Shown: positions 1,249 through 27,324 of the stretch, one piece after another
Layout: every line of letters starts with the position of its first letter
Numbering within the stretch: position 1 is the first letter of the stretch
Made by a program: the position numbers and the translations under genes
The notes under the pieces: model-generated
Databases searched by the model: none
The model's input: the letters and a program-made list of their open reading frames with translations, nothing else
What the model was told of the DNA's origin: nothing
Origin: Moritella sp.
GTDB taxonomy: Bacteria > Pseudomonadota > Gammaproteobacteria > Enterobacterales > Moritellaceae
Assembly (NCBI RefSeq): GCF_013215705.1
Contig: NZ_JABSQR010000013.1
Span: forward strand, 62,001 to 126,000
DNA length: 64,000 bases
Direction: 5' to 3'

Positions 1249-1307
1249 AAGGAATTCAAAATCCTCTTCCGAAAGGAGTGGCGGTTCAAGTCCGCCCTCG
1301 GGCACCA
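1249..1307 (+). other. tRNA-Leu 3' half, attachment-site-like remnant A
   Basis: The stretch contains a CAA anticodon-loop-like segment, a long variable arm, a perfect T-arm (GGCGG TTCAAGT CCGCC), and the acceptor 3' strand CTCGGGC followed by ACCA. No matching 5' half precedes it, so it cannot make a tRNA. Such 3' halves are the usual footprint of tyrosine-integrase insertion into a tRNA gene. The same segment recurs at 6634, 9554, 13209 and, more diverged, at 24341 and 27304. Confidence 0.85.
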
Positions 1308-1320
1308 TATTTAAGTAATA

Positions 1321-1345
1321 GAGCCTCAACGAAAGTTGGGGCTTT
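1321..1345 (+). terminator. tRNA-Leu terminator, copy A
   Basis: A nine-base hairpin (AGCCTCAAC, GAAA loop, GTTGGGGCT) with one G-T pair is followed by a T-rich stretch. It follows the CCA end by 13 bases and is carried along with the tRNA fragment in all copies. Confidence 0.8.
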
Positions 1346-1933
1346 GTTGTATCTAGCACAATCAAAAGCTTACCTCGTATTCCCTTACGTTATATCCTTA
1401 AAAATACTCTCTAATAAACTCACGTTATTACCCTTGGAAAATTTACTCCTGTCCATATCCGGTACTTTCGCATGCAGAATCTGTGCGCAAGGTAATCTAA
1501 CTGAATCCAACACTGTTCTGTACTTTGAGGTTTGTTAGTTTTGCTGGTGGATGTAAGTGCCAGTATTAGCATGGGAGTCGGTTGGGTGGAGTTCCGGTAC
1601 TTTACGGTCCATTTCTTGTCCTTTGGAATTGGTATGCGTAATTAAGTTGATTTATTAATAACTAATGTAGCTGCGTCATTTTTTCGTAATTGGTTATTGC
1701 TGTAAGTACCTATGCCATATGGTGTTGAGGCATGTGTGTAATAAGCACGTAGGGGATAGATAATAAGTAACACACACATTACTCACCAGTTGTCAGCAGA
1801 CTTAAAATCTTGGGCTAAATCGCAAAAGTAATATTGATCATTTTTTGACTGTAATAATAATGAGTATTACTTCCTAATATTTATCGCGGCTATTTATTGC
1901 TGGTTAGTACAGCTACAAATTGTGCCTCCAAAT

Positions 1934-2932
1934 TTAAATTGATGCTAGTTTATTTTTATATGTGTAAAATTTTTTCGTTTCTTGATTCATATAGAAAAGC
2001 TGGAAATTTGTTTTTAGCTGGTTATTTAGGGTGTCAATAAAGGTGAAATCTTGTCTGGTAGGTTTACTATCAACAACAATTAATAATTTTTCATATTCAT
2101 TATGCTTTCGGTCATATATTGCGTAATCAAGTAATTGGCCTACTGCTAACCGAATACACATTTTTACAGTTCTGAAGCCTTCTAATGTGCTTTTTAATTC
2201 AGCTATATACTTCTTGTTATTGCAAGAAAAGCTGAAGTCGAAATAATCGTAACCTTCGTTTGAACCATTTTGATATTTCTTCTTAGTTTGTTCATCCGTA
2301 TCCATTACATTGTTCTGTTCATTTAACCAAATATCAAAGTATTTTGCTAAGAATTGCTCTCTATATATTATTGTTTTTTGCTGTTCAGGAAGTAAATAAT
2401 CGCTTTTTTTTAATTCTGGTTTATTAGTTTTCTTCTTTAGGGGTGGCTTATTTGCATTATTTAATCTTGTGAAGTATTCAGGGCAATCTAAGTTAATAAA
2501 CGAATCTATGTCGTGTTTGTTTGTAATGTATCCTTCAAGAGCTGGATAAGGTGTATTTTTTTTACGACTTCCAACAGCTCGAAACTCTAATAGCCCTGAT
2601 GGTATGCTTAATTGTAGTTTTTTTGCATCAGCTTTATATTTGAGGGGAATTTCAATTCTTATACCTTGAGACCTATTCTTGATTCTAATTTGTGGGTGGA
2701 ATCCTGCCGCATCAGTTGTGGTGTATGTGCTAGAAACCATACCTTTTTCAGTTTTTTTTGCTATATGACTCACGGTCTCCCAATGATAAGTGGATAATAG
2801 TTTTTTTCTAAAATAAGAAAATAAATCAGCTATATGGGGCTTGTCATGGTTTAGTAATGCTAAAGCTTTGGTGTAGCTTTCAGTGAATGTTTCGCTTAAT
2901 TGTTCATTTTTCATTTCTAGTGTTTTAGACAT
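1934..2932 (-). CDS. PD-(D/E)XK nuclease-like protein
   Basis: The 332-residue product starts at an ATG with a good AAGG site eight bases upstream; an in-frame TTG at 3022 would add 30 residues. The N-terminal half is basic and unrecognised. Around residues 235-270 there is an acidic 'DYFDF' strand, then 'AELKS', then 'AVGQLLDY', a spacing that resembles the PD-(D/E)XK fold (acidic residue, E-x-K, and a following helix with Gln). The remainder looks like an alternating strand/helix nuclease core. It stands alone in the island, opposite in strand to its neighbours. A role as a defence or DNA-processing nuclease is inferred from the fold pattern only. Confidence 0.5.
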   Translation of the reverse strand: MSKTLEMKNEQLSETFTESYTKALALLNHDKPHIADLFSYFRKKLLSTYHWETVSHIAKKTEKGMVSSTYTTTDAAGFHPQIRIKNRSQGIRIEIPLKYKADAKKLQLSIPSGLLEFRAVGSRKKNTPYPALEGYITNKHDIDSFINLDCPEYFTRLNNANKPPLKKKTNKPELKKSDYLLPEQQKTIIYREQFLAKYFDIWLNEQNNVMDTDEQTKKKYQNGSNEGYDYFDFSFSCNNKKYIAELKSTLEGFRTVKMCIRLAVGQLLDYAIYDRKHNEYEKLLIVVDSKPTRQDFTFIDTLNNQLKTNFQLFYMNQETKKFYTYKNKLASI

Positions 2933-3022
2933 ACTCTTGACCTTACTATTCTTCGATTTTGTTAATTTATTTTGAAGAAAACTTAACCCAGTTATTAACT
3001 GATGCTGCTTGTATAAATGCAA

Positions 3023-3426
3023 ATTTAGTATTCTCTACTTGAAACATGCATCAACCCAACTCATGCAATTCAGCTGATAAGTATTCTAAATAAAGAGGAG
3101 TAATTACCTTTTTATTGCAAATCTTTGATAAAGAAAAAAGTGATAGTTGAAATCGAGTTATCTTTTTGCCTTTCGCCTTTCGCCTTTGCATTTGTATTCA
3201 CTGATTTAACAATCAATGCAGCACAATCGTGGGGCGACGGTTTCATCTTCTTACCTTTTGTCATTTCAAGTGTTTGTATAATGGCAGCTGAAAGTGTGCT
3301 GATCAACTATTTTGGTGTGCTTGGAGTCTTAAATAGGTATTTATTTATTTGTGAAATGTGTTTGCGTATCTACCCTCATCTTCAAAAATATATTAATACC
3401 TTGTATCACAATTAAAGGGTATTAAT
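3023..3426. other. no convincing gene; integrase leader repeat at the end
   Basis: Two short opposing frames (about 64 and 96 codons) overlap here and neither has a clear start or family. The end of the stretch (from about 3366) repeats the leader seen before the integrase remnant at 4999, including 'acccatcttcaaaaa' and 'tattaataccttgtat'. Confidence 0.5.
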
Positions 3427-3591
3427 ATGACCATCAATAACACCAACTTTCTCACCACCAAAAATAATCAAATCCACCAATGCCACCTAGAATTACTTCC
3501 CACTAACTCTGTAAATTCATCAGTAACAGAACTTAAATTGAATGATTATCAACGTGTATTATGCTCAGATAGTATTGAGGTAATAGGTTAA
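3427..3591 (+). pseudogene. tyrosine integrase N-terminal remnant 1
   Basis: A 54-codon frame begins 'MTINN' and resembles the first 50 residues of the integrase fragment at 4999 ('LP.N..NSS.TEL' is shared). It then runs out of homology and stops. The upstream leader is also shared with the 4999 copy, so this is a decayed paralogous integrase start and not a gene of its own. There is no core-binding or catalytic domain. Confidence 0.65.
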
Positions 3592-4100
3592 TGTGTTGAT
3601 ATAAATATATTAATAGCTAACTTTCACATCTTGATAGTAGCAATGTAGAAGTGTTGCCGATATTCACCACATCATTAAGATTTGGATATTAAGCTAGAGA
3701 TTATCACCACGAAGCCTTGATAATCATGGCAATGTATCCATTGCTATAATCAAGAACTGAAATCTAATGTAAGCATCTGATTTAAAATCACTTAATAGGT
3801 AGTAACGAAACTATTAGCAGGATAATTTAGTCATGATATCAATAATTAAATATTCATGCTAAATGCCGTGACATAATTACCAGTACAGAATAAAGCAGAA
3901 TCACAAGAGTTCACTCTCCATTATCTTAACCCTCGAACCGCGAATATCATCGTTATAATCTAATCCTCTGTCTATCTAAACTGCTAGTATTAGTTGAATA
4001 GTGACGATGATATTAGTTTTATGATTTTAAGGTGTTGATTTTAAATGGAACGACTGCCATTGTGTTATAATCTTTAGGGCTGGTAGATTGGAGGGTTTAC
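3592..4100. other. AT-rich spacer with no gene seen
   Basis: Stops are frequent in all frames. A short block near 3931-3985 ('ctcgaaccg.gaatatcatcgttataatc') is repeated near 13352-13385, so this is another shared island fragment. Confidence 0.5.
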
Positions 4101-4892
4101 ATGGGACTGTTAAATATAAAACAACGATTTTCTGACGATATAGATAAACTGACAAATGAAGAAGCTGCTTATATATTAACTATTTTGATGTTAATACTTG
4201 GCCTTGCTATTCACGCTTTCCTTGAAAAAATAAATACTGAAATCAGTTTCTCACTTTACTGGTTCGCATTAATTTTCATGTTTTATGGATTTTCAAATTA
4301 TGTTTTTGAATTAATTAAAATTTTGAGTTCAAATTTACTTGGGAAATCACTGGGAGCAATAGTATTTCTAGGTGCTACAACGTTGAATTTAACTGTTGCA
4401 AACGGGTTTATCAATAATGTATTACATGTACCTGCATCGGCTTTTGGTTATACACAAACTCTTGTGTCAATTTTAACCATTCCTGTTTCTAGCTCTATAT
4501 CCTTTATGGCTTTATTCGTTATTTGTTTATCAGTAATAATGGTAGATGGAATGGTGAGTTTTAAGAGTATGAGCGCTAAGAATATACTAACACTTAAATT
4601 TATTAGAGGATTTGCTGTAGGCAGCCCATTTCTTGTTACGAGTAGAATGATATCAATTGTTATATTGTTATCACTATCCATGAGTTTTGCAAATAATAAT
4701 AAATGGTATTCTGATCAGATCTCAGTATTTACTAAATGGTTTGCTTTCAACTTTGAAATGGATAGCTACGGATACTGTATAATTCCTGATAGTGCTAAGG
4801 TTTCATACCTTCAGATGGATAATATCGTGGTTGGTGAGTTTGATGGTGAGAATTACAATTTTTATGTTAAGCGATGCCGTGATGAACTATAG
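4101..4892 (+). CDS. multi-pass membrane protein of unknown function
   Basis: The 263-residue product has an ATG preceded by a strong GGAGG site. About five hydrophobic stretches lie at roughly residues 24-40, 50-70, 82-105, 125-150 and 180-200, followed by a soluble tail of about 60 residues that contains two cysteines. I do not recognise the family. It is alone between two integrase remnants, which marks it as island cargo. A membrane location is clear from the sequence; the role is not. Confidence 0.6.
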   Translation: MGLLNIKQRFSDDIDKLTNEEAAYILTILMLILGLAIHAFLEKINTEISFSLYWFALIFMFYGFSNYVFELIKILSSNLLGKSLGAIVFLGATTLNLTVANGFINNVLHVPASAFGYTQTLVSILTIPVSSSISFMALFVICLSVIMVDGMVSFKSMSAKNILTLKFIRGFAVGSPFLVTSRMISIVILLSLSMSFANNNKWYSDQISVFTKWFAFNFEMDSYGYCIIPDSAKVSYLQMDNIVVGEFDGENYNFYVKRCRDEL

Positions 4893-4998
4893 CTAGTAGA
4901 TTTTATTACTCAACAGTAGAGAACCTTTTTTCATCGTATCTAACCCATCTTCAAAAACATATTAATACCTTGTATCCCTAACCAGACGAGGTATTAAT

Positions 4999-5583
4999 AT
5001 GACCATCAAAACCACGCCCAATAACCCTAATCCCATTACCACCAAGAAATTCAAATTCACCAATGCAAATCTAAAATCCCTTCCAGCTAATCCAGCAAAT
5101 TCATCATCAACAGAACTCGAAGTATCCGACACAGAAATCATCGGCTTGAAATGCCTATCCGGTAAAACAGGTAATAAACGTTTCTTACTACGCTATAAAT
5201 TCAACGGGCGTAAATGTAGTATCACCATTGGGCGCTCCCCAGACATCGATATTAACCAAGCTCGTAAGGTAGCGAGAAAGTATAAAGGTATGATTGCTGA
5301 TGGTGTTGACCCTAAAGCAGAGCGTGACAATCAAGTTGATTACCCAACGGTTAAGTCATTCTTCTACGATACGTACTTACCACTGGCAAAGCGCAGAAAG
5401 AAAACATGGGCTTTGGATGAGAAACGATTCCGTAAACACTGTCATGCAATTGCCAATATCAAATATAACGAGCTAACAGTTAGCCATGTAATGAAACTCC
5501 ACTTAACCCTGAGTGAAACTAAATACAAAGGTGAATATTACGCACCTGCAATTTTTAATCGAGTATTATATGTATTTTTATAA
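4999..5583 (+). pseudogene. P4-type tyrosine integrase, truncated after the core-binding domain
   Basis: The 194-codon frame has the N-terminal DUF4102-type domain ('GLKCLSGKTGNKRFLLRY', 'ITIGR.PDI', 'ARK.A.KYK', 'DGVDPKAERD') and most of the SAM-like core-binding domain ('VKSFFYDTYLPLA' to 'YYAPAIFNR'). Full-length relatives have about 400 residues with a catalytic R-H-R-Y domain, which is absent here. The frame stops right after the core-binding domain at a switch to unrelated DNA. It is the best preserved of five integrase remnants in the window and is unlikely to be active. Confidence 0.8.
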
Positions 5584-5752
5584 ATATGTGAAATCAGTTG
5601 TAATTTCAGCGATCACTAGTACTTATCTTTTTGTAATATAGGATGAATCGGTATTCTCAAATTAGCTGTTATGAGAAAGATATTTTGTCGAAATATTTGA
5701 TTTACCCAATTAAGTGAGTTTATTAAATATTAAAATAATTAAAGGAATATGA

Positions 5753-6286
5753 ATGAGTGCTCTGCCATATCAACTACCCAAAAGCGCTATGCAAAAGATA
5801 TTGCATTTATCTAAAATAACCTCAATACCAATGAATTTATTGCAAGGTGCTGGAGATGCAGAAATTGAAGCCATTGCAGCTATGATTTTATATCGTCACA
5901 TGGACCGTTTACAAAGAATTGAAGCCATGTCCGTGATTAGAAGTGTTAAAAACAGAGCGCTTATGGGGCATATATTAGATAAAACTTTAGATACTACATT
6001 TGTTAATCCTCAATGGGGGATATGGTCTCTATCAAATAAGGAGCTTTTGGAAGACATTAATTTTCATACTGTTATTGATTCTTTTGCTGGTTATGTGGGT
6101 ATTGGGGGATCAATAATAGGAGGGAAGGATATGATAAAAGATATTTGGACTCTCAAAAAAATGGGTAAAAAACACTGGACTTTGATTGTTATTTGGGGAA
6201 GTGTAATCTTTAATAAAAAAGAACTGAATAAGGCACAAGCAGAGTTAGGTAACAGGCAAACTATTAATAAATCAGGACTATATTAA
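5753..6286 (+). CDS. hypothetical protein with glycine-rich hydrophobic segment
   Basis: The 177-residue product starts at an ATG seven bases after AAGGA. The first 100 residues are helical and soluble-looking. Residues 110-125 hold a glycine-zipper-like stretch ('FAGYVGIGGSIIGG') and residues 140-155 a short hydrophobic stretch. No family is recognised. Its stop overlaps the start of the next small membrane gene (TAATG), so the two are translationally coupled. The pair lies between an integrase remnant and long repeat B, as an island cassette. A toxin-with-partner arrangement is possible but unproven. Confidence 0.5.
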   Translation: MSALPYQLPKSAMQKILHLSKITSIPMNLLQGAGDAEIEAIAAMILYRHMDRLQRIEAMSVIRSVKNRALMGHILDKTLDTTFVNPQWGIWSLSNKELLEDINFHTVIDSFAGYVGIGGSIIGGKDMIKDIWTLKKMGKKHWTLIVIWGSVIFNKKELNKAQAELGNRQTINKSGLY

Positions 6287-6477
6287 TGCTAAAATTTATT
6301 CTGTCAAAGGTTGTGTTTTATATATTTTTATTCATATGTGTCTATTGGTATTGGGAGGAGTCTGATGATAGTACTAAAACAGGGTTGTTTTATTTCGTTT
6401 TTCTAATAGCATTTTGTCAAAATATTTATTACAGCTATAAACTTTCAAAAATAGAGGCTGAAAATAAACAGCTATAA
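6286..6477 (+). CDS. small membrane protein, coupled to the upstream gene
   Basis: The 63-residue product has two hydrophobic helices (about residues 3-20 and 31-48) separated by an acidic 'EESDDS' turn, and a charged C-terminal tail. Its ATG shares a base with the stop of the preceding gene, so it probably depends on that gene for translation. No family is recognised. Small size, membrane location and tight coupling suggest that it serves the upstream protein, for example as an immunity or anchoring partner. This is an inference from layout. Confidence 0.45.
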   Translation: MLKFILSKVVFYIFLFICVYWYWEESDDSTKTGLFYFVFLIAFCQNIYYSYKLSKIEAENKQL

Positions 6478-6633
6478 CATTATGTCCAATACTGAGTCAG
6501 GATTAAAATTCAAATATTTTGGTAAATGAAATTCCTGTGTTCATCAGTAGCTAACTTGATCCAACACAATCCCAAATGATGGACAAGAATATCCAACGAG
6601 ATCCAAGTATCTATCACTACTGCAAAGGGTCTC

Positions 6634-6692
6634 AAGGAATTCAAAATCCTCTTCCGAAAGGAGTGGCGGTTCAAGTCCGCCCTCGGGCACCA
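6634..6692 (+). other. tRNA-Leu 3' half, attachment-site-like remnant B
   Basis: It is base-for-base the same as copy A from the anticodon loop to CCA. There is no 5' half upstream, so no functional tRNA. Confidence 0.85.
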
Positions 6693-6705
6693 TATTTAAG
6701 TAATA

Positions 6706-6730
6706 GAGCCTCAACGAAAGTTGGGGCTTT
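6706..6730 (+). terminator. tRNA-Leu terminator, copy B
   Basis: The same GAGCCTCAAC/GAAA/GTTGGGGCTTT hairpin as copy A. It would stop transcription leaving the 5753-6477 gene pair. Confidence 0.75.
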
Positions 6731-7062
6731 GTTGTATCTGGCAGAATTAAAAGCTTACCTACATTTTCCTTTACCTATATCTCTAGAAATACTTCCCAAT
6801 AAACTTAACTATGACCTCTAGATAATTTGTTCCTGTCCATATCCGGTACTTTCACGTGCAGAATCTGTGCGCAAAGTCATCTCACGCACTCCTAATGGAT
6901 CCAACATCGTCCTGTCCTTTGAAACTAGTATGGATTATTCGGTGGATTTATTAATGCTGGAGGTGGCTGCGTTATTTTTCCGTAATTGGTTATTGCTGGA
7001 AGTACCTATGCAGTATGGGGTTGTGGCATGTGTTTAATAAGCTCGTAGGGGATAGACAGCAG

Positions 7063-7340
7063 TGAAGACTATTAGATTCGGTTAATTCAATTTATTCGTG
7101 ATTGTGGTGTAGAGATTATCACTGAGTAGCGGTGTAACAATGACAATCGACGGTGCATTTTCTGGTGAAAAAAAAACTTGTTTTCATAATAACATAAAGC
7201 TGTTATCTTCCACTCAATCAACAGCTTATATAACATGCCTAGACTCCTTTTTTGTGAGGGAACTAGCACCACTTTAGCCGTCGGCAACTTCCCTTTAACA
7301 CCCTACAGTTTACTGTGCGCAATAGCTAAACTGGCAAAAA
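7063..7340. other. upstream region of the chemoreceptor gene, no gene seen
   Basis: AT-rich spacer between repeat B and the chemoreceptor start. No clear ribosome site or conserved element was found. Confidence 0.4.
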
Positions 7341-9260
7341 ATGAAGAAAAATATGAAATCACTTGGTTTTAAAAAAACATTAATTATTTCAATATTATTG
7401 TTAGTTACGGCATCTTTGCTAACATCAAATTGGCTTTCTTATAATAATTTAAAAGATAGTACGGTTCAGAGCATTAAAGATAAGTCAGTATCGACTGCCA
7501 GATTTGAAGCTAAGATTATTGAGGATTGGTTTCATACTAAAACCCTCGCAATTGACTCATTAGCCAACCATTACAAACTCGGAACATATGGTGATCGCTA
7601 TGTTGATATAACAAGATTCACGAAGAGTGCTAGTGACCTAACTTCTGTGTATTTTGGTTTCGATGATGGCAGTACATATTCGTCCTTAACTGGTGATCGT
7701 TGGATTAACGGCGTTGCAAATAAGGATAAATATGATCCACGTGTCCGCCCTTGGTATCAATTAGCAAAAAGAACAAATAATTTAGATATTACAGATGTTT
7801 ATAATGATACAAAAACAGGGGAACCGGTTGTCTCTATTGTAAAAAATATTGGAAATGGTGTCGTTAAAGGTGATGTTTTTTTGTCCATCTTAGATGACGC
7901 TGTAGAAAATATTAATTTTCCGGGCGCGATTACCATAATTTTAGACGGAGCGGGAAAAACGTTAGCTACCAACTCAACTGCACTAGATGTGGGTGGGCGA
8001 CTTTCCGATATCGGTATGGTCGACGTACAGAATGCAATGCTATCTCAAGACGATATATATATAGATTACACATTAAATGGTGTCGAAAAATTAGCGATCA
8101 CTAAATCTATAAAACTGGTCAATGGAAAAAAATGGTATCTATTTATCGGGGTTGATAAGTCCGTTGTCTATGCTACCGTCGATGAAGCACTGACTAATGC
8201 GCTTATCACTTCACTTGTTATGATATCCATTGTAGTTTTGCTTGTGTTAACCATGCTAAACACTTTATATCGTCCAATTCTTTCGCTTAAAGACGTTGTG
8301 CTCGATTTATCAAAAGGTAATGGTGATCTCACCCGTCGATTACCTGTAACTAGTGATGACGATTTGGGGCAAATATCAGAGGGCATTAATGTATTTATCG
8401 GCAACCTACAATCCTTAATGTTGGACGTATCACAGTCTTCTGAGCTCATCTCTCATAGTGTTGATAAACTTAAACACCAAACGGATGAAAATAACGAAGT
8501 ACTGACCGCTCACTCGGCAGAAACAGAACAAATCGTTGCTGCTATTGAAGAAATGAATGCGACTGCCAATGATGTCGCGAGTAATGCTTCCGAAGCATCT
8601 CAGTTCACTCATAATGCAAACACTCAAGTTACTGATTCTAAAAACGTTGTAATGAGCGCCACAAAGACGGTATCTGAACTCGTTGAAGAAGTTGAAAATA
8701 CATCTGTGAGTATTGCAGAAATCGGAAATGACACCAAAGATATTACCAACGTACTGAAAGTCATTGGTGAAATTGCAGAGCAAACGAACCTGCTGGCGTT
8801 AAATGCAGCTATCGAAGCGGCTCGAGCCGGGGAGCAAGGCCGAGGCTTTGCCGTTGTCGCAGATGAAGTCCGAGCGCTTGCTGCCAGAACGCAAACTAGC
8901 ACGGCAGAGATTGAACAGACGCTAAGTAAGCTACATGCGGGATCTACTACTGCAATTACAGCAATGGACTCCACTAAATTGACATGCGAAAGAACGGTGG
9001 AAACGACATCTTTGGTGGCTCAAAACCTTGATTCTATAGCTAAATCAGTAATCCATATTAATGACTTAAATATGCAGATAGCTACCGCAGCCGAGGAGCA
9101 AAGCTCTGTTACAGATGAAATCACTCGTAATATGACCGCTATTCGTGGAATCGTGGGGGAGTTGTCTGCGAATGGAGAAGCGACAACAAATGAAACCATC
9201 AATCTTGCAGCTGCGAACAGTCAGCTGAAATCTATCGTAAGTAAATTCAGGTTGCAATAA
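7341..9260 (+). CDS. methyl-accepting chemotaxis protein with dCache sensor
   Basis: This 639-residue transmembrane chemoreceptor has TM1 at about residues 13-33, a periplasmic dCache_1 domain to about 280, TM2 at about 287-308, HAMP to about 360, and a signalling coiled coil to the end. The hairpin tip near residues 475-505 carries '[20 protein letters not shown]', the CheA/CheW contact. The sensor contains 'YDPRVRPWY', which fits the Y-x4-R-x-W-Y part of the known amino-acid-binding dCache motif, so an amino-acid ligand is likely. There is no C-terminal CheR-tether pentapeptide. It is a single gene framed by repeats B and C. A second ATG lies four codons in; no strong ribosome site decides between them. 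Confidence 0.9.
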
Positions 9261-9553
9261 AAAGTATCCGCATAAGGGGATCTCGTTTCTCCAATCGAGC
9301 AGCAATGGAAGCTGCTCGATAAATCAGCTATGACCAATTATAATTGTCTATCCACTCAATATTCTCTTAAAAAACATGCTGATGATATTGTTTAGTTTAA
9401 TAGCTGTCGGCTGCGCGACAGCTATTCTTATCTGTTGGTATTAAAATTTAAGGTATTTTGGTAAATGTAATTCCTGTGCTAAATTAATGCCTAATAGATC
9501 CAATACAATCCCAAATAATATCCAAGTCTTTGTCACTAGTGCAAAGGCGTCTC

Positions 9554-9612
9554 AAGGAATTCAAAATCCTCTTCCGAAAGGAGTGGCGGTTCAAGTCCGC
9601 CCTCGGGCACCA
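9554..9612 (+). other. tRNA-Leu 3' half, attachment-site-like remnant C
   Basis: It is identical to copies A and B from the anticodon loop through CCA, again without a 5' half. Confidence 0.85.
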
Positions 9613-9625
9613 TATTTAAGTAATA

Positions 9626-9650
9626 GAGCCTCAACGAAAGTTGGGGCTTT
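9626..9650 (+). terminator. tRNA-Leu terminator, copy C
   Basis: The same hairpin and T-rich tail as in copies A and B. Confidence 0.75.
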
Positions 9651-10000
9651 GTTGTATCTGGAACAATGAAAAGCTTACGTTATCTGTCCTTAATTCATAT
9701 CCCTGAAAATACTATCTAATAAATTCACATTATTACTCTTAGAAAATTTACGCCTGTCCATATCCGGTACTTTACGGTCCATTTATTGTCCTTTGGGGCG
9801 TGGTTTAAGATAAGTTATTTGTTCGACTCTACTGTAATATTATTTCTGTAATCATAAATGTTAAGCGTTATAATATTTATTGCATTAGAGTATATTTATC
9901 ATAACTTACAGCGAGTAATATAAAAATCTTAAGAAAACTTATAAGTCACCCACCTAGTGCTGAATTGATGTTTAAATGCTGATGGATCCCAACCAATTTA

Positions 10001-18157: not shown

Positions 18158-18330
18158 TGTATTTGGTCTCATTTTATCTAACCTTATGTCCGGTACTTTA
18201 CGGTCCTAGTCCTGTCCTTTGGAGTGAGTACGGATAATTGTGCCAATTTAAAATCCCTTTCTTTTTCGTTGGCGCTCAAGTTCATTACGTTCAGATCGGT
18301 TTAAGTTTTTTTGTTTGGTTCTGGTCTAGT

Positions 18331-18735: not shown

Positions 18736-18782
18736 ACACATGCAACACTCACGCACCAACACATAACACTCAATACGCGTTA

Positions 18783-18908: not shown

Positions 18909-19256
18909 TTTTCAGTTTCCTTATGCACAGAATAGCCCCTGAATAAAAAGTGAGGATCATTAAAATTTTAACTAATTTATTGTTGAATAGGTTTGAATTA
19001 AAAAGGTGATTTTAGAAGATGTTAAGTGCGGTAAATGAGAGAGGCTCCGCAATTGGTTTGATCGTAAGTCATTGTTTTAAAGTTGTTAAAGTGTAATTCT
19101 AAAAGGTTTATATGGGTAAGAGATAATCAGCGGCATCGAGCAGTGCAATTAAGAAGCCTAATTCAGGCACATTACCCCTCTTAATCCAACCATTACCCCC
19201 ATTGATAAATGTCGTTATGACGCTTCTATCGTGATTGGCGATAACATAAAAGTTAA
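18909..19256. other. spacer with a possible gene fragment
   Basis: On the minus strand, about 19114-19260 reads without stops as a protein-like end ('NGWIKRGNVPELGFLIALL' then 'DAADYLLPI' and stop) but has no start codon of its own. It may be the 3' tail of a lost gene. I recognise no family. Confidence 0.3.
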
Positions 19257-19291
19257 CACACCCGGACTTAAAAAAGTTTATCCCGGGTGTG
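19257..19291 (-). terminator. terminator of the metalloprotease gene
   Basis: A nine-base perfect stem (CACACCCGG / CCGGGTGTG) with an A/T-rich loop lies just beyond the stop of the protease gene. Confidence 0.6.
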
Positions 19292-19301
19292 AGATTTGTT
19301 G

Positions 19302-21191
19302 TTATTGAGTTTTAAAACTACCAGTTAGTGAGATATCACTAATCTGATCCCAAGCTTGCACCATTATGTAATAAGTGCCAGCTTTAACATCTGATATTCG
19401 ACATGATTCACTACTCGTTAGTGATGTACTTTTACAATCGGAAGTAGTCAGTGAAGGAATACCTCCAAAACGTACATACAGATCTGCATCACCACTGCCA
19501 CCTGTTGTGGTAAATTCTAATTCTGTTGCACCATTTGGTACTTTCATTGTGTAAAATAAGGCGGTATTTTTATTGCCCGATATACCTGTTTTGGCAATAC
19601 CGTTTTCTAATACGTTATCACTCACTCCTGTTGTTGGACATTTACCAACACCAACTGCACACCATGCTGTTTCAACGGCCGTTTTTTCTGCAGGGCCATA
19701 AAGATCAAGTGCTGATTGTGCTGTTGCACTACGCGCGGCTGAAAAGTTAGAACTGGGATTCATGTATGTGGTTAGTGCTCGATAAAAGATTTGCTCTGAC
19801 TTGAGTAATCCAATTGCTGGTACTTGCGCGATAGATTTATTTCGAGGGTGAGTACCACCATCACTTAATAATACAAATGCCAAGTTTGCAATACCCGAAT
19901 TACCATGTACCCCACCCTGATCGTTTAAATCAGAAGGCTGACTTGTGTAAGGAATGCGGTCTGGCCACCAATCTCGTGAATAGCGATCTTTCGTTGGATT
20001 GTTCATGTAGCGTAACGCATCACCAGGATAATTTGGTGTGTAGCTTTCTTCACCCAGTAACCAATCACCCTGAGTTGTGTTTTGACTATAAGCATAGGCT
20101 GCGACGCCCAAGATATCTGACCATGCTTCGTTTAACGCCCCGGATGCATTGTTGTAAATTAGGCCAGCGGTATATTGCGTAACACCATGAGTTAACTCAT
20201 GACCGATAACATCGAAGCTTAGAGTTAAATCTGCAAGTGTGCCGTTACCGTCACCATATAACATTTGGGTACCGTTCCAATAGGCATTACCAACATTATC
20301 ACCATAGTGTACACTCGATATCATAGGTAAGTCTCTGTTATTAATACTTTTACGATTGAATCTCGCTTTGTAATAGTCATATACTTTGGCTGCACCATCA
20401 TGTGCACGTTGTGCTGAGGCATCATTGCAGTTCTGATTATTGGTACATAAAAGTTGACCAGGAGCATCGTCGTCCAGTTGATTATTTAGATCGTGGGTCT
20501 TCCAGGTCTTTGCGGAATGAACAGTCGCATGGCGAGTAAGTAGTTCAAAGCTATTAATATCATAGAAAAGAATATCACGACCAAAGTCTTCATCACCATT
20601 ATTCCAAGTAACTTCGACCTTCCAAGCTAGTCGGGCCTCTTCAAGTATAGGTAAATAAACATATACTTGTTCTGGTTCAGATGTTACATCTCCAAGTTTA
20701 CCCGCTATGTTTCTGATGCTGTCTGCATCATCAGTCACATCGCGTTGTGCAATACTTGAGGAGAATGAAGGTGATGTGTTGGATTGTTTCGAGGCAATAA
20801 TGCCAGAAATAGCATATACATCGCTACCAGAGCTACGCAGGAATCCATTTGAGACTTGATTGGTATGTAGGGTAATACTGGTACCATGGACAAGCAAATT
20901 ATCAATGTATTGGGCAAGTTTAATATGGGTTTTGCCTAAATCATCAGTCCATTTTTGGGTGACTTTGAATGTCTCGTTATCATTTAGCTTAGCATGGTTG
21001 TATTTTGCTAATATTTGTTTAATTTCATCAGACGACATTTCATTACTGATTGTGCCTATTTCTCCAGTGGTAAAACTCGATGTTCCTTTTTCTGTTACCG
21101 ATTTAATTTCTAAATCATCTGTTGCAAAAGAGCAAATCGAATAACCACTCATTACAGCTACAACTATATATTGAAGATATTTGGGTTTCAT
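19302..21191 (-). CDS. secreted M4 zinc metalloprotease (vibriolysin/thermolysin type)
   Basis: The 629-residue preproprotein starts at the ATG behind AAGGA; an upstream in-frame start would add 24 residues and spoil the signal peptide. It has a signal peptide (1-22), an FTP/PepSY propeptide to about residue 210, and an M4 catalytic domain with HELTH at about 330 and the third zinc ligand Glu in 'NEAWSD' at about 353. The linker carries 'VGVGKCP'. A C-terminal PPC domain (about 540-629) is of the kind usually removed on secretion. It should degrade extracellular protein. It is flanked by the two copies of the MCP-LysR duplication, suggesting acquisition with or between them. Confidence 0.9.
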   Translation of the reverse strand: MKPKYLQYIVVAVMSGYSICSFATDDLEIKSVTEKGTSSFTTGEIGTISNEMSSDEIKQILAKYNHAKLNDNETFKVTQKWTDDLGKTHIKLAQYIDNLLVHGTSITLHTNQVSNGFLRSSGSDVYAISGIIASKQSNTSPSFSSSIAQRDVTDDADSIRNIAGKLGDVTSEPEQVYVYLPILEEARLAWKVEVTWNNGDEDFGRDILFYDINSFELLTRHATVHSAKTWKTHDLNNQLDDDAPGQLLCTNNQNCNDASAQRAHDGAAKVYDYYKARFNRKSINNRDLPMISSVHYGDNVGNAYWNGTQMLYGDGNGTLADLTLSFDVIGHELTHGVTQYTAGLIYNNASGALNEAWSDILGVAAYAYSQNTTQGDWLLGEESYTPNYPGDALRYMNNPTKDRYSRDWWPDRIPYTSQPSDLNDQGGVHGNSGIANLAFVLLSDGGTHPRNKSIAQVPAIGLLKSEQIFYRALTTYMNPSSNFSAARSATAQSALDLYGPAEKTAVETAWCAVGVGKCPTTGVSDNVLENGIAKTGISGNKNTALFYTMKVPNGATELEFTTTGGSGDADLYVRFGGIPSLTTSDCKSTSLTSSESCRISDVKAGTYYIMVQAWDQISDISLTGSFKTQ

Positions 21192-21263
21192 AATTATTCC
21201 TTTTATTAACATTAGTTGATTGATTTGTACATTTTTCTTCATGTAAATGAATATCATTTGCAA

Positions 21264-21389
21264 TAAAATAAATAAATAGAGAATGTTTTTTGTGATGTGT
21301 TTGTGCGATCTACCTCTTAATTTTGGAGCGCTAAGTGTGACCGGTGTTTTATTTTTGTTGGGGGATTAGGATGTCTGCAGATCTTTATG
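21264..21389. other. promoter side of the protease gene
   Basis: AT-rich, with no gene seen. A 'aatgaatatcatttgcaata' stretch near 21246-21265 looks vaguely like half a Fur-type site but is too weak to call. Confidence 0.3.
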
Positions 21390-21952
21390 CTGTATTTATG
21401 GTTTTTACGTTTCAAAAAATGGAAATTTGCAGGATTAAGTTGATTATTTAAAATTGCAAAATAGGAATTTAGAATTAAAAAACCAAGCACTATCTGAGCA
21501 GTTGGATAAAGCATTGAATAATCCTGATATCGAATTTAAACATATGCTTCTGAAATGAACTATTGAGTGTATCAACCATGTCGAAGGGATTAGAGAAACC
21601 GTATTGTCTTCATATCAAGCAATTGAGTTAGAGAATCAATCGAGTGACGGATAATATTTCTGGACTGTCAAAAATGGCGCGAGTATAAGTACTTTCGTTT
21701 CGGCAATCTCAAAGATTTCGGACCAAACTAATTTACTTGCACTGAATGCTGCCATAGAAGCTGCGCGATGCTGGCAGAGGATTTAGTGTTGTCGCGGATG
21801 AAGTTAGAGCATTAGCCAATAATACCAATTCATCTGCAAACGAGGTGGCTGAATTGGTGGCAATACATCAGCGTTTAGAAAGCTAGATGAACCACATCGA
21901 GAAATACATAAAAACGGAGTTGCCGCTTTAGTTTTAATATCTAACCTTATGT
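21390..21952 (+). pseudogene. decayed duplicate of the CZB chemoreceptor
   Basis: It is collinear with 17050-18205 but shortened by at least four deletions, a single-base loss ('atggcgcg' for 'atggccgcg') and several point changes, one making a TGA. Pieces of the coiled coil, the MCP tip ('[11 protein letters not shown]') and the end of the CZB domain can be followed in different frames. The receptor cannot be made from this copy. Confidence 0.9.
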
Positions 21953-21972
21953 CCGGTACTTTACGGTTTTCT

Positions 21973-22860
21973 TTATTCAATTAAATTTTTTAACCAAATA
22001 TGGCGTTGTGAATTGCGATTACGGGTATGCCAGATTTTTACTATTTCAAAAGGAGGCACTTCAAAAGGTGCTGGGGTTTGCGCGAATTCTTTGAATAATG
22101 ATTCAGACAGTTTTGAAGGCATTGTCGCTATAATATCAGTGCCTTTAATTAAAGAGGCTAGGGCGCTAAAATTTGGTGCACTAGCAACAATTTTTCGCTT
22201 GGCGCCAAAACGCTGCAAGTCCACATCAATATCTGTTCTCAGCGAGTTATTAAATGACATTATGGCATGCGGTAATTGACAGTATTGCGCTAATGTTTTT
22301 GGGGCACTCTGATACTCTGGATCGTAAAAACACACTTCTCTATCACTGAATAATGTTGTTTGTACTAGATCGAGTTCACTGCTATCTAAGGTTGGAGATA
22401 GCACGAAATCGACCTCTCCTGAACGTAATACATTCGCCCACTGAGATTGCGTTCGTGCAGGGGCAATGTGCAGTGAACTCAACGGTGCTTGTACCCGAAG
22501 TTTTTTCAGTAGCGGTTTGATAATGGTTTCTATCTCATAATCGCTAGCCGCGATGGTAAAGGTAGAAGTATCTAGCATGGGATTATACTGCTCTGGGGTG
22601 GCGAAATCTTGCATTGCGACAATAATCTCACGAGCTTTATCTATCAGTACATCTGCTTTTGGTGTCGCGGTAATACTTCTACCAGACTGTACAAACAAAT
22701 CATCTTGTACTATCTGGCGCAATTGATTAAGGCCGTGACTAACGGTTGATTGTGTCAATTCCAATTTCGCAGCCGCTTTCGTGACAGATTGGCAGTCATA
22801 AACGCTGATAAACATGCGCAGCAAGCGCACATCCAAGGACGTATAATCGATTTTTTTCAT
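21973..22860 (-). CDS. LysR-family transcriptional regulator
   Basis: This 295-residue protein of normal family length has an N-terminal winged helix-turn-helix ('LDVRLLRMFISVYDCQSVTK' to 'QSTVSHGLNQLRQIV', residues 8-50). A periplasmic-binding-like effector domain runs from about residue 90 to the end. It is divergent from the SnoaL-like secreted gene at 22948, with 87 bp between the starts, the typical layout for a LysR protein and its target. Its 3' 400 bp are duplicated exactly at 18331. The ligand is unknown. Confidence 0.88.
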   Translation of the reverse strand: MKKIDYTSLDVRLLRMFISVYDCQSVTKAAAKLELTQSTVSHGLNQLRQIVQDDLFVQSGRSITATPKADVLIDKAREIIVAMQDFATPEQYNPMLDTSTFTIAASDYEIETIIKPLLKKLRVQAPLSSLHIAPARTQSQWANVLRSGEVDFVLSPTLDSSELDLVQTTLFSDREVCFYDPEYQSAPKTLAQYCQLPHAIMSFNNSLRTDIDVDLQRFGAKRKIVASAPNFSALASLIKGTDIIATMPSKLSESLFKEFAQTPAPFEVPPFEIVKIWHTRNRNSQRHIWLKNLIE

Positions 22861-22947
22861 AGGTGGTATTTAACTCATGATATTTATTAATTCAATGTGA
22901 CTAATCATAATCGTTTTAATCTCACAACAACAGATGGATATTTCACA

Positions 22948-23841
22948 ATGATATTAAAACGGACTTTAGTTACAGCGATACTTAGTTTGGGGTTGTTGCT
23001 AGCGGCGCCGATCTTTGCTCAAATTAAGATGATAGACGAACAGACAGAACAGTCCGTTGAAATAGCGCAGGGATTTTACTTTGATGTCATTAAGTATCGA
23101 AACCTTAATAACTTCTCTCGATATGTAGGTGAAACATACTTGCAGCACGCTCCCGCCTATGGTGACGGCCCTGCACAGTTAATTTCAGCCGTGGCGCTAG
23201 AGTTGACGAATGATCCAGGTGTTAAGGTCGAAATTTTACGCACTATCGCAGAAGGTCCTTATGTTGCAATTCATTCAGCATGGACGGCAACCAGTGGCGA
23301 TGTGTATGTCTATATCGATATTTGGCGTACAGAAAAAGGGAAGTTAGTCGAGCACTGGGATCATTATCAGCAGGTGCCTGCAGAATCAGCGAATAAAAAT
23401 ACGATGTATCAAGGCCCTGACGCTGATATATATTCGCGACAGAACAAAGAGCAAAACAGAGCGCGTTCACTGGCAATATTAGCGTCGTTTAATAACCCAT
23501 CAAATGTTTCTGCTGTTGATAATTTCGTTGCCGAGCAGTACATCCAACATAACCCCTATGTTGCAGATGGTCCGCAGGCGCTTGTTGATTATTTGAAAAG
23601 CTTAGCCTCTGATGGTGTTCGTTTAAAAACGGAGATAGCTAAAACGATAGCAATGGGCGATATGGTTCTCGTCCATTCACGCCAAACTAATCTCGATATC
23701 AAAAATGATCTCGGCACTGGCTACATCGATATTTTTCGCTTTAATGACGAAGGCAAAATAGTAGAGCATTGGGATATAGAAGAAAAAGTTAGCGGTAAGT
23801 CTAATAACGACAATGATATCTTTGGTTACTCTCAAAAATAA
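22948..23841 (+). CDS. exported protein with two SnoaL/NTF2-like domains
   Basis: The 297-residue product starts at the ATG that gives a clean signal peptide ('LSLGLLLAAPIFAQ', cleavage near residue 25); an upstream start would add 17 residues. Two similar NTF2-fold units follow (about residues 45-150 and 185-285), each with 'YIQH.P....GP' and a 'VEHWD' ending. This pattern is common in SnoaL-like proteins that bind small hydrophobic ligands. It is divergently paired with the LysR gene, so probably regulated by it. No enzyme activity can be assigned. Confidence 0.75.
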   Translation: MILKRTLVTAILSLGLLLAAPIFAQIKMIDEQTEQSVEIAQGFYFDVIKYRNLNNFSRYVGETYLQHAPAYGDGPAQLISAVALELTNDPGVKVEILRTIAEGPYVAIHSAWTATSGDVYVYIDIWRTEKGKLVEHWDHYQQVPAESANKNTMYQGPDADIYSRQNKEQNRARSLAILASFNNPSNVSAVDNFVAEQYIQHNPYVADGPQALVDYLKSLASDGVRLKTEIAKTIAMGDMVLVHSRQTNLDIKNDLGTGYIDIFRFNDEGKIVEHWDIEEKVSGKSNNDNDIFGYSQK

Positions 23842-23896
23842 ACCTTTCTCGATCAGGTTTATATACACGACTATTTTAAATGCTAACTCAGGATTT

Positions 23897-24115
23897 CGAA
23901 TGGTCGTGGTTATATGTCCGTGGGATAGAGATATTTTATTGTTGGTTCTACGTTGAAAACGAATAGAGCGGTCGAAATTGAGGGCATTACATATCTATTG
24001 CACCACTGGATATATCAAGCGAATCGCATCCTTTTATACGGGTAAACAAAAAACGATCCAAAGTGATGGTCGTGTGGCACAGTTTAATCGCCGTTTTGGT
24101 GGGTCAAAGAGTTAA
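23897..24115 (+). pseudogene. rpmE2: ribosomal protein L31 type B, broken
   Basis: Pieces of an L31B protein are readable in successive frames: '[21 protein letters not shown]', then '[12 protein letters not shown]', then '[23 protein letters not shown]' ending at TAA 24113-24115. At least two frameshifts separate them, one in a T run at 24033-24036. The N-terminus is unreadable. In relatives this zinc-independent L31 is the first gene of a Zur-controlled pair with the L36 paralogue, which follows here 13 bp later and is intact. Confidence 0.8.
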
Positions 24116-24128
24116 AAGGAGCTTTGAT

Positions 24129-24272
24129 ATGAAGGTTTTAAGCTCCCTTAAAAGCGCTAAGCAGAGACACCCTGATTGCCAGATTGTGAAACGTCGTGGT
24201 CGTGTTTATGTTATTTGCAAAGCCAACCCGAGATTCAAAGCGGTTCAGGGAAGAACGAAAAAACGAGCTTAA
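24129..24272 (+). CDS. rpmJ: ribosomal protein L36, zinc-independent paralogue
   Basis: The 47-residue product starts at the ATG after AAAGGAG; a longer frame upstream belongs to the broken L31 gene. The sequence matches the YkgO-type L36 ('[19 protein letters not shown]', '[10 protein letters not shown]'). It lacks the four-ligand zinc ribbon of the housekeeping L36, keeping only two cysteines. Such paralogues replace the zinc protein in ribosomes under zinc shortage, normally under Zur control. No clear Zur box was found, and the partner gene upstream is broken. Confidence 0.9.
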
Positions 24273-24340
24273 GCTTTAACATCATTGTAGCGAGTAATCT
24301 AACCTGATCCAAAGATTTATAATTACTGAAAGGTGTCTCA

Positions 24341-24397
24341 AAGAATTCAGCATCCTCTTCCGAAAGGAGTGACGGTCAAGTCCGTCCTCGGGCACCA
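24341..24397 (+). other. tRNA-Leu 3' half, attachment-site-like remnant E
   Basis: A diverged copy: the anticodon-loop part reads 'attcagca', one T-loop base is deleted ('gacggtcaagtccgtc'), and the T-stem pair has changed on both sides (GACGG/CCGTC) so that pairing is kept. The acceptor strand and CCA are intact. Confidence 0.8.
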
Positions 24398-24410
24398 TAT
24401 TTAAATGACA

Positions 24411-24435
24411 AAGCCTTAACGTTAGTTGGGGCTTT
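24411..24435 (+). terminator. tRNA-Leu terminator, copy E
   Basis: The hairpin 'aagccttaac..gttggggcttt' is weaker than in copies A-D but retained. Confidence 0.6.
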
Positions 24436-24687
24436 GTTGTATCCGGTACTTTCGCGTGCAGGGTCTGCGCGCAAGCTATTTAAGAAAAAAGTTCACTCGA
24501 TCCAACGCTGTCATGTACTTTGAAGATTGTTAGTTTTGCTGGAGGTTGTCTGTGGCAGTATTAGCATGGTGTTAGGTTAGGGGAAGGAGTGCTGAAAGGC
24601 CGCATAATGCGACCTTTCAGAACAGCGTACTACGGTGTTATGGTTTAATGTCGGTATTAAGTATTTATGTTGTAACTTATATGACCC

Positions 24688-26658
24688 TTACAATGTGAAT
24701 TTTTGTGCTTCATCATTTAAAACGTTCGCCATGCGTGATAACTCATGGCTCGATTCTGCAATATGTCTGACCGCGAGCTCTGTTTCAGTAGTGCCTGTAT
24801 TGATCGCTTCAATGTTTTTCGCTATCTCATCAATGGTCATGGTTTGTTGTTCGGTTGCGGTGGCAATCTGGACCACTATATCAAAGATACCATTGACCTC
24901 GGCCGCGACCTCACTATTGATCTGATTTGCTTGATTGGCAATTTCTTGCACTCTGGTGGTCTGTTCAACATTGGCTGTCATTGTTTCTACAGCGGCATTA
25001 CTACTCTTAACAATGGCTTCGATAATAACGTCTATTTCTATTGTTGATTTTTGTGTCGATTGTGCAAGATTACGCACTTCATCGGCAACCACGGCAAACC
25101 CACGGCCTTGCTCTCCCGCTCGAGCCGCTTCAATAGCTGCATTTAACGCTAACAGATTAGTTTGATCGGCTATTTGCTTAATCACCCCCAACACATTAAC
25201 AATCCTGTCTGAGTCTTGACGTAGTGTGGCCACCTGCTCGGCAGTGGTTTGCGTTGTTTCACCTAGGGCAACTAATGCACTATAGGTGCTCTCTATATGT
25301 GCAGCGCCTTGTTTCGATTTACGCTGAATCTCTTCGCAAATATTAGAGGCCGTGGCTGTGGTGGTGGCAATTTCTCTGATCGTCGCGCTCATTTCTGTTG
25401 TAGCGGCGACAACTTGCATTGTTTGTGACTGCTGCTCTGTCACCGCAGCGCTGGTTTCTTCGGTTACTGAGGCGAGTTCTGTGGCTGTCGTACCTTGTTG
25501 CACTGCCACATTCGACAATTCTAAAATCATTGAACGTAGATTGTTGATCATGGTATGTAAAGCGGTTTGCAGTGTGCCAACTTCATCATGCGCATGTACT
25601 GTGATATTAGCAGTAAGATCGCCTGCGGCCACTTTATCCGCAATCGAGGCGGCAGCAATGATAGGGTTCGCTATTTTTTGAGCAAAGAAAAATCCAATCA
25701 AGGCGACAATGACTGCAGAGCCCGCAATAAGCAATACAGAAAGTAATGTGCCTTGTTTAACCGAAGCGAGTGCTTCTGCATCGTCAATTTCACTGATAAT
25801 AACCCAACGAAAATCGCCGATTGTAATACTGTCATAAGCAGATAGAACCAGATTGCCGTTGTAATCTTTAATCGTCGCAACACCTTTCTCGCCATTTAAG
25901 GCTCGATTAACCGCGTCGGTATCAACACCATTATTCGTGACGTTTCCAGTAAAGCTTGCCTTTATGGAGTGGTTGGTTGGATCCAGATATGAATCAGAAC
26001 GCATCAATTTATCTTCACCAACCAGATAACTTTCGCCTGTTTCACCCATACCATCACGTAAACCCATTATCTTATTGGTACCTTCGCTGGAAATTTGCAG
26101 TGCTAATATTATGTCGCTGCCCTGGATGGGGATAGCGATAAATGCAGCGGGTTCGTCATTACTTGGCGCATAAGGTTGGTAATCAATGATGCCATAGCTG
26201 CCTGACTGTTTAACTTGTTGAATCAGCGAGCCTAAATTAGAACTGGCATATTGACCAGTTAAAATATTGGTCTGATAATCGGCCTCTTTTGCTTGGGTGT
26301 AATAAATTAGGCCCTGTGCATCAATCAAAAATAGGTCGTAGTAACCATACAGCTTGATGTAATCAGTGAAATAGGTATCGTAACTATGTTCATCTAAGTT
26401 CGGAACCGTATTGGCGAGTATCTGAATATCAGCGTGGCGTTCACTAAAAAAGGTTTCAATTTGAGCGCGTTTGATTTGGTTAATCGCTTGCAGGGATTGC
26501 GAAACTTGATACTCAATATTGGTTGAAAATTTCAACGTGCTAATCGTAGTAACAATCAATGCGGGTAACAGGCCCACAAATAAGAAAGCTAACGTTAATT
26601 TGGTTTTTAAGCTCCAATAGCGAACATTAAAGATCGAGCGATTCTCTAGGTTTAACAT
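24688..26658 (-). CDS. methyl-accepting chemotaxis protein, dCache-HAMP type
   Basis: The 656-residue receptor starts at an ATG nine bases after AAGGA. TM1 lies at about residues 17-38, a periplasmic double-Cache domain runs to about 290 (with '[13 protein letters not shown]' and '[13 protein letters not shown]', typical of this type), TM2 is at about 296-318, then HAMP and the signalling domain. The tip '[20 protein letters not shown]' is near residue 495. There is no C-terminal pentapeptide tether. The sensor differs from that of the receptor at 7341, so the ligand is likely different. It is isolated between repeat E and an integrase remnant. Confidence 0.9.
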
Positions 26659-26964
26659 TAATGAATTCCTTTAATAACAGTCCCAATCGGTGCCGAGCCT
26701 CAAATTATTCGCAATATACTTTCAGTGTAACTGACGTGTTTATAGTGTATTTTCTGTGTATTACAACGCATTGAGAAGGCATTATTGGTTTATATGGTGT
26801 TTTTCACCCGAACTTTAATGTATTTTAAAATATTTTAAAATACACATCTTTAGGTACAACCAAAGGGAAAGGCACGTACAGGGGGGCTTGGGATTGGGTA
26901 TTCACGATATAACTAAACGTATCTAACTCATCTTCAAGAACATATTAATAATCCCACTGCCATC
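26659..26964. other. spacer upstream of the chemoreceptor, no gene
   Basis: It contains a tandem 'tattttaaaa' pair near 26820-26840 and, from about 26925, the integrase leader ('ctcatcttcaagaacatattaat'). Confidence 0.4.
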
Positions 26965-27129
26965 ATGACCAAGAAATTTAAATTAAAATTAATCAATGGT
27001 AATTTAAAATACTTTCCCGTTAACCCAGTAAATTTATCATCAACGAATTAGAAGCATCCGATACAGAAATCATCGGTTTAAAATGTCTATCAGGTAAGAC
27101 GGGTAATAAATGTTTATTATTACGTTCTC
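26965..27129 (+). pseudogene. tyrosine integrase remnant 4
   Basis: It reads 'MTKKFKL' and continues with diverged matches to the 4999 fragment; after a frameshift 'EASDTEIIGLKCLSGKTGNK' is clear. It ends in the first beta strands of the DUF4102-type domain. This is the shortest remnant with a start codon. Confidence 0.75.
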
Positions 27130-27303
27130 ATTGAGTACTCACGAGGCCTAACCATGTCTCTGCGCCAAGTCTTGATTAATAAGTCATGAAGGTAATCGAC
27201 CGCTTTTGAGCCCTGATATTTTTTGCTCCGATACACGGCTGTGGTTTTATAAAATTGGACACCTAAATAAGGTGAATTAACTTTATTACTTCAGTATTCC
27301 ATC

Positions 27304-27324
27304 TCAAGTTCGCACTCGGGCACC
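27304..27324 (+). other. tRNA-Leu 3' end, attachment-site-like remnant F
   Basis: Only the last part survives: 'aagttcgcactcgggcacca' (half T-arm, acceptor strand, CCA). It is followed by the same spacing and terminator as copy E ('atttaaatgacaaagcct'). It marks the right-hand edge of the tandem array. Confidence 0.7.

Follow-up and report, generated by a model that had tools for sequence, protein, structure and literature searches.

What could have left six copies of the 3' half of a tRNA-Leu gene, one behind another, on one strand of a Moritella chromosome? The copies lie in a stretch of 64,000 nucleotides of Moritella sp. (assembly GCF_013215705.1, 4.86 Mb in 58 contigs), bases 62001-126000 of contig C10 (NZ_JABSQR010000013.1), hereafter the window. 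An original prediction, made from the letters of the window, read them as footprints of tyrosine integrases at a stacked integration site with five cargo modules, and expected an intact tRNA-Leu(CAA) gene upstream of base 1, on the same strand and with the same 3' half and terminator. We conclude, with a probability of about 0.93, that the copies belong to an accretion array at the chromosomal tRNA-Leu(CAA) gene, built by one family of elements with a tyrosine integrase.

Displaced tRNA-Leu(CAA) 3' halves lie downstream of one intact gene

To locate all related sequences, the whole genome was searched with a 99-nt query made of the tRNA-Leu(CAA) 3' half and its terminator. Thirteen matches were obtained, six of them short and sitting in or overlapping other tRNA genes. 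The seven long matches cluster in 39 kb of C10, on its plus strand. One is the intact gene, found as expected upstream of the window at C10:50340-50424, 12.9 kb before copy 1, with the same 3' half and terminator as the copies; the other six are displaced copies (Table 1). Their number, their plus orientation and the lack of a 5' half in any of them were confirmed by position and with ARAGORN, which detected no tRNA gene there; Rfam models, scanned against the window at the gathering threshold, gave no match either. Since the weakest copy has an E value of 1.1e-11 for the whole genome, chance is excluded. Copies scattered over unrelated loci had been named beforehand as an observation that would speak against stacking; all seven long matches share one locus, and one degraded scar lies elsewhere, on contig C1.

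Copies 1 to 3 are identical to each other over 99 nt. With growing distance from the gene, identity to the query runs 100, 100, 100, 99, 88 and 81%, and in the comparison across the genus the copies decay from 99% to 79%. All six had been described as extending from the anticodon loop to the CCA end and terminator. This is true of copies 1 to 5; copy 6 is truncated, covers only query bases 32-99 (T arm, CCA end and terminator) and lacks the anticodon loop. Successive copies are 5.4, 2.9, 3.7, 11.1 and 3.0 kb apart, as predicted (2.9-11 kb), which delimits the five expected modules, E1 to E5. A sixth, E0, fills the 12.9 kb from the intact tRNA to copy 1 and lies mostly outside the window (C10:50425-62000), with its last 1.25 kb inside. 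The locus thereby bears the signature of a tRNA-targeted island: an intact tRNA gene followed downstream by a displaced 3' fragment of like orientation.

Element ends and integrases

To the right, the tRNA and, in part, the more recent copies are followed by similar sequence of up to about 500 bp (element left end); on their left side, the copies share similar sequence over about 90 bp (right end). We compared the tRNA-Leu(CAA) locus of this genome with those of ten relatives (11 Moritella genomes, among them Moritella sp. PE36, G005, and M. dasanensis ArB 0140, G001). Across this sample, a right end stands directly left of 16 of the 24 displaced fragments. The family is defined by its ends and not by its cargo. 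E1 to E3 have such ends, though no trace of an integrase was found in E2 or E3; these two carry element-type sequence on both sides, with left ends only partly conserved, in the manner of attachment-site (att)-flanked, cis-mobilizable cargo.

The sole intact integrase of the array (405 aa, C10:51741-52955) lies in E0, 1.3 kb after the tRNA. It contains a Phage_integrase domain (PF00589, E=2.9e-21) and the arm-binding domain Arm-DNA-bind_3 (PF13356, E=4.3e-13), matches the phrog_1 integrase family (E=5.4e-53), and its C-terminal half aligns to solved XerC-like and XerA recombinases. Between a tRNA half and the next fragment there is thus an integrase in E0, a remnant in E1, E4 and E5, and none in E2 and E3, so that the predicted integrase footprint is borne out by the intact gene and by remnants in three of the five window modules, and not every member of the array has an integrase of its own. 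Of the window remnants, that in E1 has one stop in the part that matches the integrase, that in E4 has eight stops, and E5 retains only short pieces. The truncation points of E1 and E4 are near the same codon, and those of G002 and G004 near another; a shared deletion point was not used as proof of a spreading defective unit, since separate deletions may also have produced it.

Order of the modules across Moritella

The genes pepA-lptF-lptG-RDD are found left of the tRNA-Leu(CAA) gene in all 11 genomes, and nine of them carry displaced 3' fragments, one to six each (24 in total). When fragments of the same genome were compared in pairs, the nearer one was closer in sequence to its own tRNA in 27 of 32 pairs, tied in four and worse in one; none of 20,000 shuffles in a permutation test was as extreme. 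An integrase is intact in 4 of the 24 modules, a remnant in 8 and absent from 12, not counting the second recombinase that G005, G009 and G010 have, which is about 25% similar; all four intact genes adjoin the tRNA. The modules therefore have a definite order, as the idea of stacked insertions of different age had implied, with the youngest at the tRNA and the oldest at the far end. Old tRNA variants are also kept in displaced halves: the third fragment of G009 has the variable-arm bases of the present tRNA of G003.

The deep modules recur in relatives. Between this genome and the sister species G005, identity is 94.8% in the core genes pepA-lptFG, 94.4% in E5 and 93.4% in the right flank of E5, and E5 adjoins the same flank in G005, where it is 2.7 kb longer. 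Because E5 and its flank are as similar as the core genes, E5 predates the split from G005. Parts of E4 are shared with G008 (85.5%, core 86.7%), G009 (90.2%, core 89.4%) and G002 (86.9%, core 87.9%). For E1, only integrase remnants and pieces of about 220 bp (G005, G010) were found at the other loci, and for E2 and E3 the loci of the other ten genomes gave no match; the nearest relatives of the E2 chemoreceptor in the genus (at most 66%) are at other places of their genomes. Old layers thus look inherited and young layers private, as stacking at the gene predicts. The comparison with relatives had been proposed in order to find fewer modules or a clean tRNA junction. Fewer or different modules were indeed present at the same gene; a perfectly empty site was not among them.

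The youngest module of G005, G009 and G010 (L044-L046, L052-L059) carries the second tyrosine recombinase and, after it, a protein of some 800-900 aa that matches no family above cut-off. The one of G010 also encodes a small protein that is weakly RNase H-like, below the curated cut-off.

How the array may have formed, and alternative origins

The accretion reading draws on the positions and orientation of the copies, their order of decay, the conserved ends, the single intact integrase nearest the gene and the deep modules common to relatives, all read from sequence. In this scheme, the attP core of an element would have been recombined with the anticodon arm of the tRNA gene by the tyrosine integrase. 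As the element brings its own 3' half and terminator, the gene would stay whole and the old 3' half would be pushed to the far end. The rebuilt gene would again be a target, so that the next element would enter between the gene and the previous element, and six such rounds would be recorded in this genome. Displaced halves, integrases and element ends would decay once unused, while cargo (chemoreceptors, the cyclase, the protease, a putative antiphage pair) could stay. The E0 integrase is presumably active and would recognise this core. The modules without an integrase may be att-flanked cargo aided by the integrase of another element, or may have lost their own later.

Several observations weigh against this scheme. 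The prediction had taken each module as an insertion of its own; E2 and E3 show no integrase trace and may not have moved by themselves. Eight of the 24 fragments, including copy 6 and the deepest fragments of several relatives, have no right-end match. No 3' fragments were found at the loci of G001 and G003, both of which have other element sequence beside the tRNA, and one of the 32 fragment pairs runs counter to the distance order. A part of E4 is closer to G006 (95.2%) than the core genes are (90.8%), which simple inheritance does not predict, and not all deep DNA therefore looks purely inherited. The nearest approach to an empty site was an 825-bp remnant in G007. The right-flank genes of Moritella were found in none of seven outgroup loci (the left flank pepA-lptF-lptG-RDD is present in four of them, and RDD alone in a fifth). 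Element ends also occur away from the tRNA, as off-site scraps on contigs C1 and C19 (described below). Outside the genus, a displaced tRNA fragment was seen within the fetched stretch in only 1 of 10 tRNA-bearing loci (G202).

Direct repeats in one orientation could also come from tandem duplication of one chromosomal segment, with no integration at all. The DNA between the copies differs from module to module, though, with mainly element ends and integrase remnants in common, and the copies long enough to tell are preceded by element right ends and not by a tRNA 5' half. We rejected this origin on the differing cargo and consider it extremely improbable. It is also very unlikely that the 3' halves persist because they are useful in themselves, as insulating terminators or as tRNA-derived regulatory RNAs: the copies do carry the hairpin terminator of the tRNA, as read from their sequence, but they decay with distance and the deepest is truncated, as expected of unused sequence, and on this decay a function of the halves as such was rejected.

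Where the modules without an integrase (E2 and E3 here, 10 of 18 in the relatives) came from is more evenly contested. They could be cis-mobilizable or trans-mobilised cargo that came without an integrase and relied for insertion on that of a co-resident element able to recognise the shared ends. The 12 of 24 modules without integrase trace include small ones of 2.3-3.7 kb, E2 and E3 keep element-type sequence at both ends, and integrase-less ssrA islands of Dehalococcoides have been suggested as such units (PMC3146451). E2 and E3 match the locus of no other genome, on the other hand, which leaves independent movement unsupported, and integrase remnants in eight modules indicate that loss after arrival does occur; we place this origin slightly below even odds. 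Decay alone would explain the same modules if they were once-autonomous elements whose integrase and backbone were deleted after integration. Integrase remnants in E1, E4, E5 and five modules of relatives, several of them adjoining the right end, and the rise of decay with distance agree with this, but E2 and E3 stand high in the stack with identical 3' halves and no integrase trace, while the deeper E4 and E5 retain some. We give decay alone an even chance.

Mirror-image elements and a possible crossover site

In the elements considered so far (form A), the tRNA 3' half and terminator are at the left end of the element. A 5' half had been said never to occur, which is so in this genome; two relatives, G004 and G009, have orphan 5' halves from a mirror-image element (form B). 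There, a bare tRNA 5' half lies at the original left flank, followed by the element and, 15-16 kb further right, by the complete gene. The left end of form B carries no 3' half, and its right end supplies the promoter and the 5' half; the 145-bp stretches in front of the two 5' halves of G009 share 99.3% identity, and the copies of G004 are more diverged. The intact form B integrase is 95% (G004) and 90% (G009) identical to that of E0. G007, G008 and G010 also have a right end of form B type on the left side of the gene, where it adjoins a complete or partial AbgT transporter gene; in G010 there are two such right ends with a left end between them and no orphan 5' half. These three may be what erosion has left of form B insertions, or may represent the flank that form B picked up.

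Sequence comparison of the two mirror forms is enough to narrow down the crossover site. Gene and fragment agree from ATTCAAAATCC onwards in form A, and orphan and gene agree up to ATTCAAAATCCT in form B. If both forms share one crossover, it would lie within the 12 nt ATTCAAAATCCT, in the anticodon loop and 3' stem. We infer, at about one chance in two, that a single integrase family acts on this 12-nt anticodon core in two mirror ways, form A stacking to the right of the gene and form B (G004, G009 and perhaps, in eroded form, G007, G008 and G010) to the left. The hotspot would then grow both ways, polarity would switch by swapping the tRNA half, and integrase-less cargo with form A ends would ride along.

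Restoration of a 5' half is known in itself. Of 3919 Islander islands, 159 have 5' fragments (PMC4383910), 9 of 88 phage-related sequences of Sinorhizobium meliloti match a tRNA 5' end (PMC11476347), and pTN3-like archaeal integrases use the tRNA 5' half (PMC8371274). Form B resembles these, with the difference that integrases 90-95% identical occur in both forms at one gene here. A small search of excerpted literature returned no mention of one integrase family working in both polarities at one gene. The two-polarity integration is the least ordinary part of the system.

Content of the youngest module

After the integrase, E0 encodes two proteins (136 and 198 aa) that match only PHROGs families without an assigned function, as well as a DUF2787 protein and a WYL regulator. 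At its far end is an adjacent GapS6a/GapS6b pair, both members of which exceed the curated cut-offs of NCBIfam (119.6 bits for GapS6a, cut-off 90; 1049 bits for GapS6b, cut-off 850). The window opens with the end of the GapS6b gene, which continues upstream, with GapS6a further upstream. The pair is putatively antiphage, as its NCBIfam name suggests; PADLOC (2023) matched neither protein, and its hits, five WYL models and one weak Cas3c, all fell on the WYL regulator.

No relaxase or type IV secretion (conjugation) gene was seen among the 7 of 14 open reading frames (ORFs) of E0 scanned with Pfam; six small ORFs were in no library scan. Against 118 phage and 397 plasmid records, all matches of the E0 integrase were below 60% identity, and the best among the top-ranked matches listed reached 25.8% (phage) and 38.5% (plasmid). 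No relative came up in viral contigs, and no match to the 198-aa backbone protein in the phage records. E0 may still be linked to a phage or satellite, a link that was not rejected because PHROGs families of unknown function match six of its proteins besides the integrase (136, 198, 140, 293 and 166 aa and, weakly, GapS6b).

Relation to known islands

Att-flanked cargo stacked beside an integrase-bearing element is familiar from accretion of integrative and conjugative or mobilizable elements; in E0, no conjugation gene was seen among the ORFs tested. The leuX (tRNA-Leu CAA) island hotspot of enterobacteria involves the same tRNA species and, we presume, the same neighbours lptFG and pepA. Tycheposons of marine picocyanobacteria are tyrosine recombinase elements that bring varied cargo to tRNA genes. 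A literature search of open-licence papers (titles and abstract openings) found no mention of this Moritella array by name.

The kind of system is already known as tandem islands at one RNA gene, and the best match is the tandem ssrA islands of Dehalococcoides (McMurdie et al. 2011, PMC3146451). These likewise have many displaced 3' repeats downstream of one RNA gene, are of different ages with recent ones beside the gene, and include several without an integration module. They differ in their use of the tmRNA T-loop and a CcrB-like serine recombinase, whereas the Moritella array involves a tRNA anticodon arm and a tyrosine integrase at tRNA-Leu. The term cis-mobilizable is used here as in that paper. 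Islander-type tRNA islands (PMC4383910) share the intact tRNA, the displaced fragment downstream in the same orientation and the integrase between them, and anticodon-centred crossover is a major class among them. A tandem is called there only if each member has its own integrase, and four tandems of at least three in 2168 genomes are reported. Most Moritella members have no intact integrase, so that this rule, and any island finder demanding an integrase per member, would miss most of the modules.

Array size, genus-wide stratigraphy and the two polarities lift the locus above the routine. It is an ordered record of gene gain at one place, in which position gives order and decay gives relative age, traceable over 11 genomes. 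Some of its cargo, the chemoreceptors and the lipoprotein operon, has long outlasted mobility, and the last arrival is the putative antiphage pair.

Integrase family outside the genus

When 295 genomes were drawn evenly from the order, the integrase was matched at E <= 1e-30 in 23, of which eight are Moritella; outside the genus, full-length matches reached 61% identity. Eleven outside loci contained tRNA-Leu(CAA) in four cases, tRNA-Leu(TAA) in four, tRNA-Trp and tRNA-Phe in one each and no tRNA in one, together with a relative of the 198-aa protein in seven, DUF2787 in six and the WYL regulator in two. The integrase family is wider than Moritella and probably not bound to one tRNA. Loci L079, L080, L081, L082 and L086, from other families of the order, have the integrase and relatives of the 198-aa and DUF2787 proteins near tRNA-Leu(TAA) or tRNA-Leu(CAA), with WYL in L079.

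Features of the window and minor observations

Table 1. Displaced tRNA halves, modules and genes in the window (positions from its first base)
Feature	Position	Strand	Details
E0, right-hand part	1-1253	+	GapS6b C-terminal part (ends 1067); conserved right end ~1164-1253
Copy 1, 3' half and terminator	1254-1353	+	100% over 99 nt
Module E1	1254-6638	+	left end ~1308-1788; right end 6550-6638
E1 ORFs without Pfam match	1934-3022; 4101-4892; 5753-6286	-; +; +	
E1 integrase remnant	4999-5583		N-terminal
Copy 2, 3' half and terminator	6639-6738	+	100%
Module E2	6639-9558	+	dCache chemoreceptor 7341-9260 between partial left end and right end
Copy 3, 3' half and terminator	9559-9658	+	100%
Module E3	9559-13213	+	IS1595-type transposase 11050-11787; GGDEF diguanylate cyclase 11836-12882; partial left end and right end
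Copy 4, 3' half and terminator	13214-13313	+	99%, one mismatch
Module E4	13214-24344	+	
E4 integrase remnant	13712-14407		eight stops
E4 lipoprotein operon	14388-16768		GNA1162-like and CsgG-like proteins
E4 chemoreceptor-like ORF	17042-18157		groups with chemoreceptors in BLASTP; not scanned with Pfam
E4 M4 protease	19302-21263		
E4 LysR regulator	21973-22860		
E4 SnoaL-like protein	22897-23841		
Copy 5, 3' half and terminator	24345-24443	+	88%
Module E5	24345-27303	+	chemoreceptor 24688-26658 (-); integrase remnant 26947-27125
Copy 6, deepest fragment found	27304-27371	+	81%, T arm to terminator
Right flank of the array in this lineage	27428-29661	-	359-aa ORF and DUF1611 gene, common to G003 and G005

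E4 is possibly two or more older insertions merged. It contains a perfect 408-bp duplicate (18330-18737 = 21972-22379) that covers the 3' part of the LysR gene, with further repeats of about 95% beside it. To the right of copy 6, a 62-bp integrase scrap (30706-30767, 77% identical, E = 3e-6) was found; layers older than the deepest tRNA fragment may thus lie beyond this copy.

Two scraps are located off-site. On contig C19, an 80-bp piece of the element right-end region (C19:61469-61549, L088:9469-9549) has no att core. The degraded scar on contig C1 (C1:50270-50349, L087:8270-8349) consists of a right end of form A type and a 30-nt scrap of the tRNA-Leu anticodon arm, right after a trypsin-like gene, and may reflect relocation or insertion at a secondary site. 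G004 and G007-G010 carry relatives of the trypsin-like gene in the flank on the right of the hotspot, and no right end of form A type was found beside these relatives.

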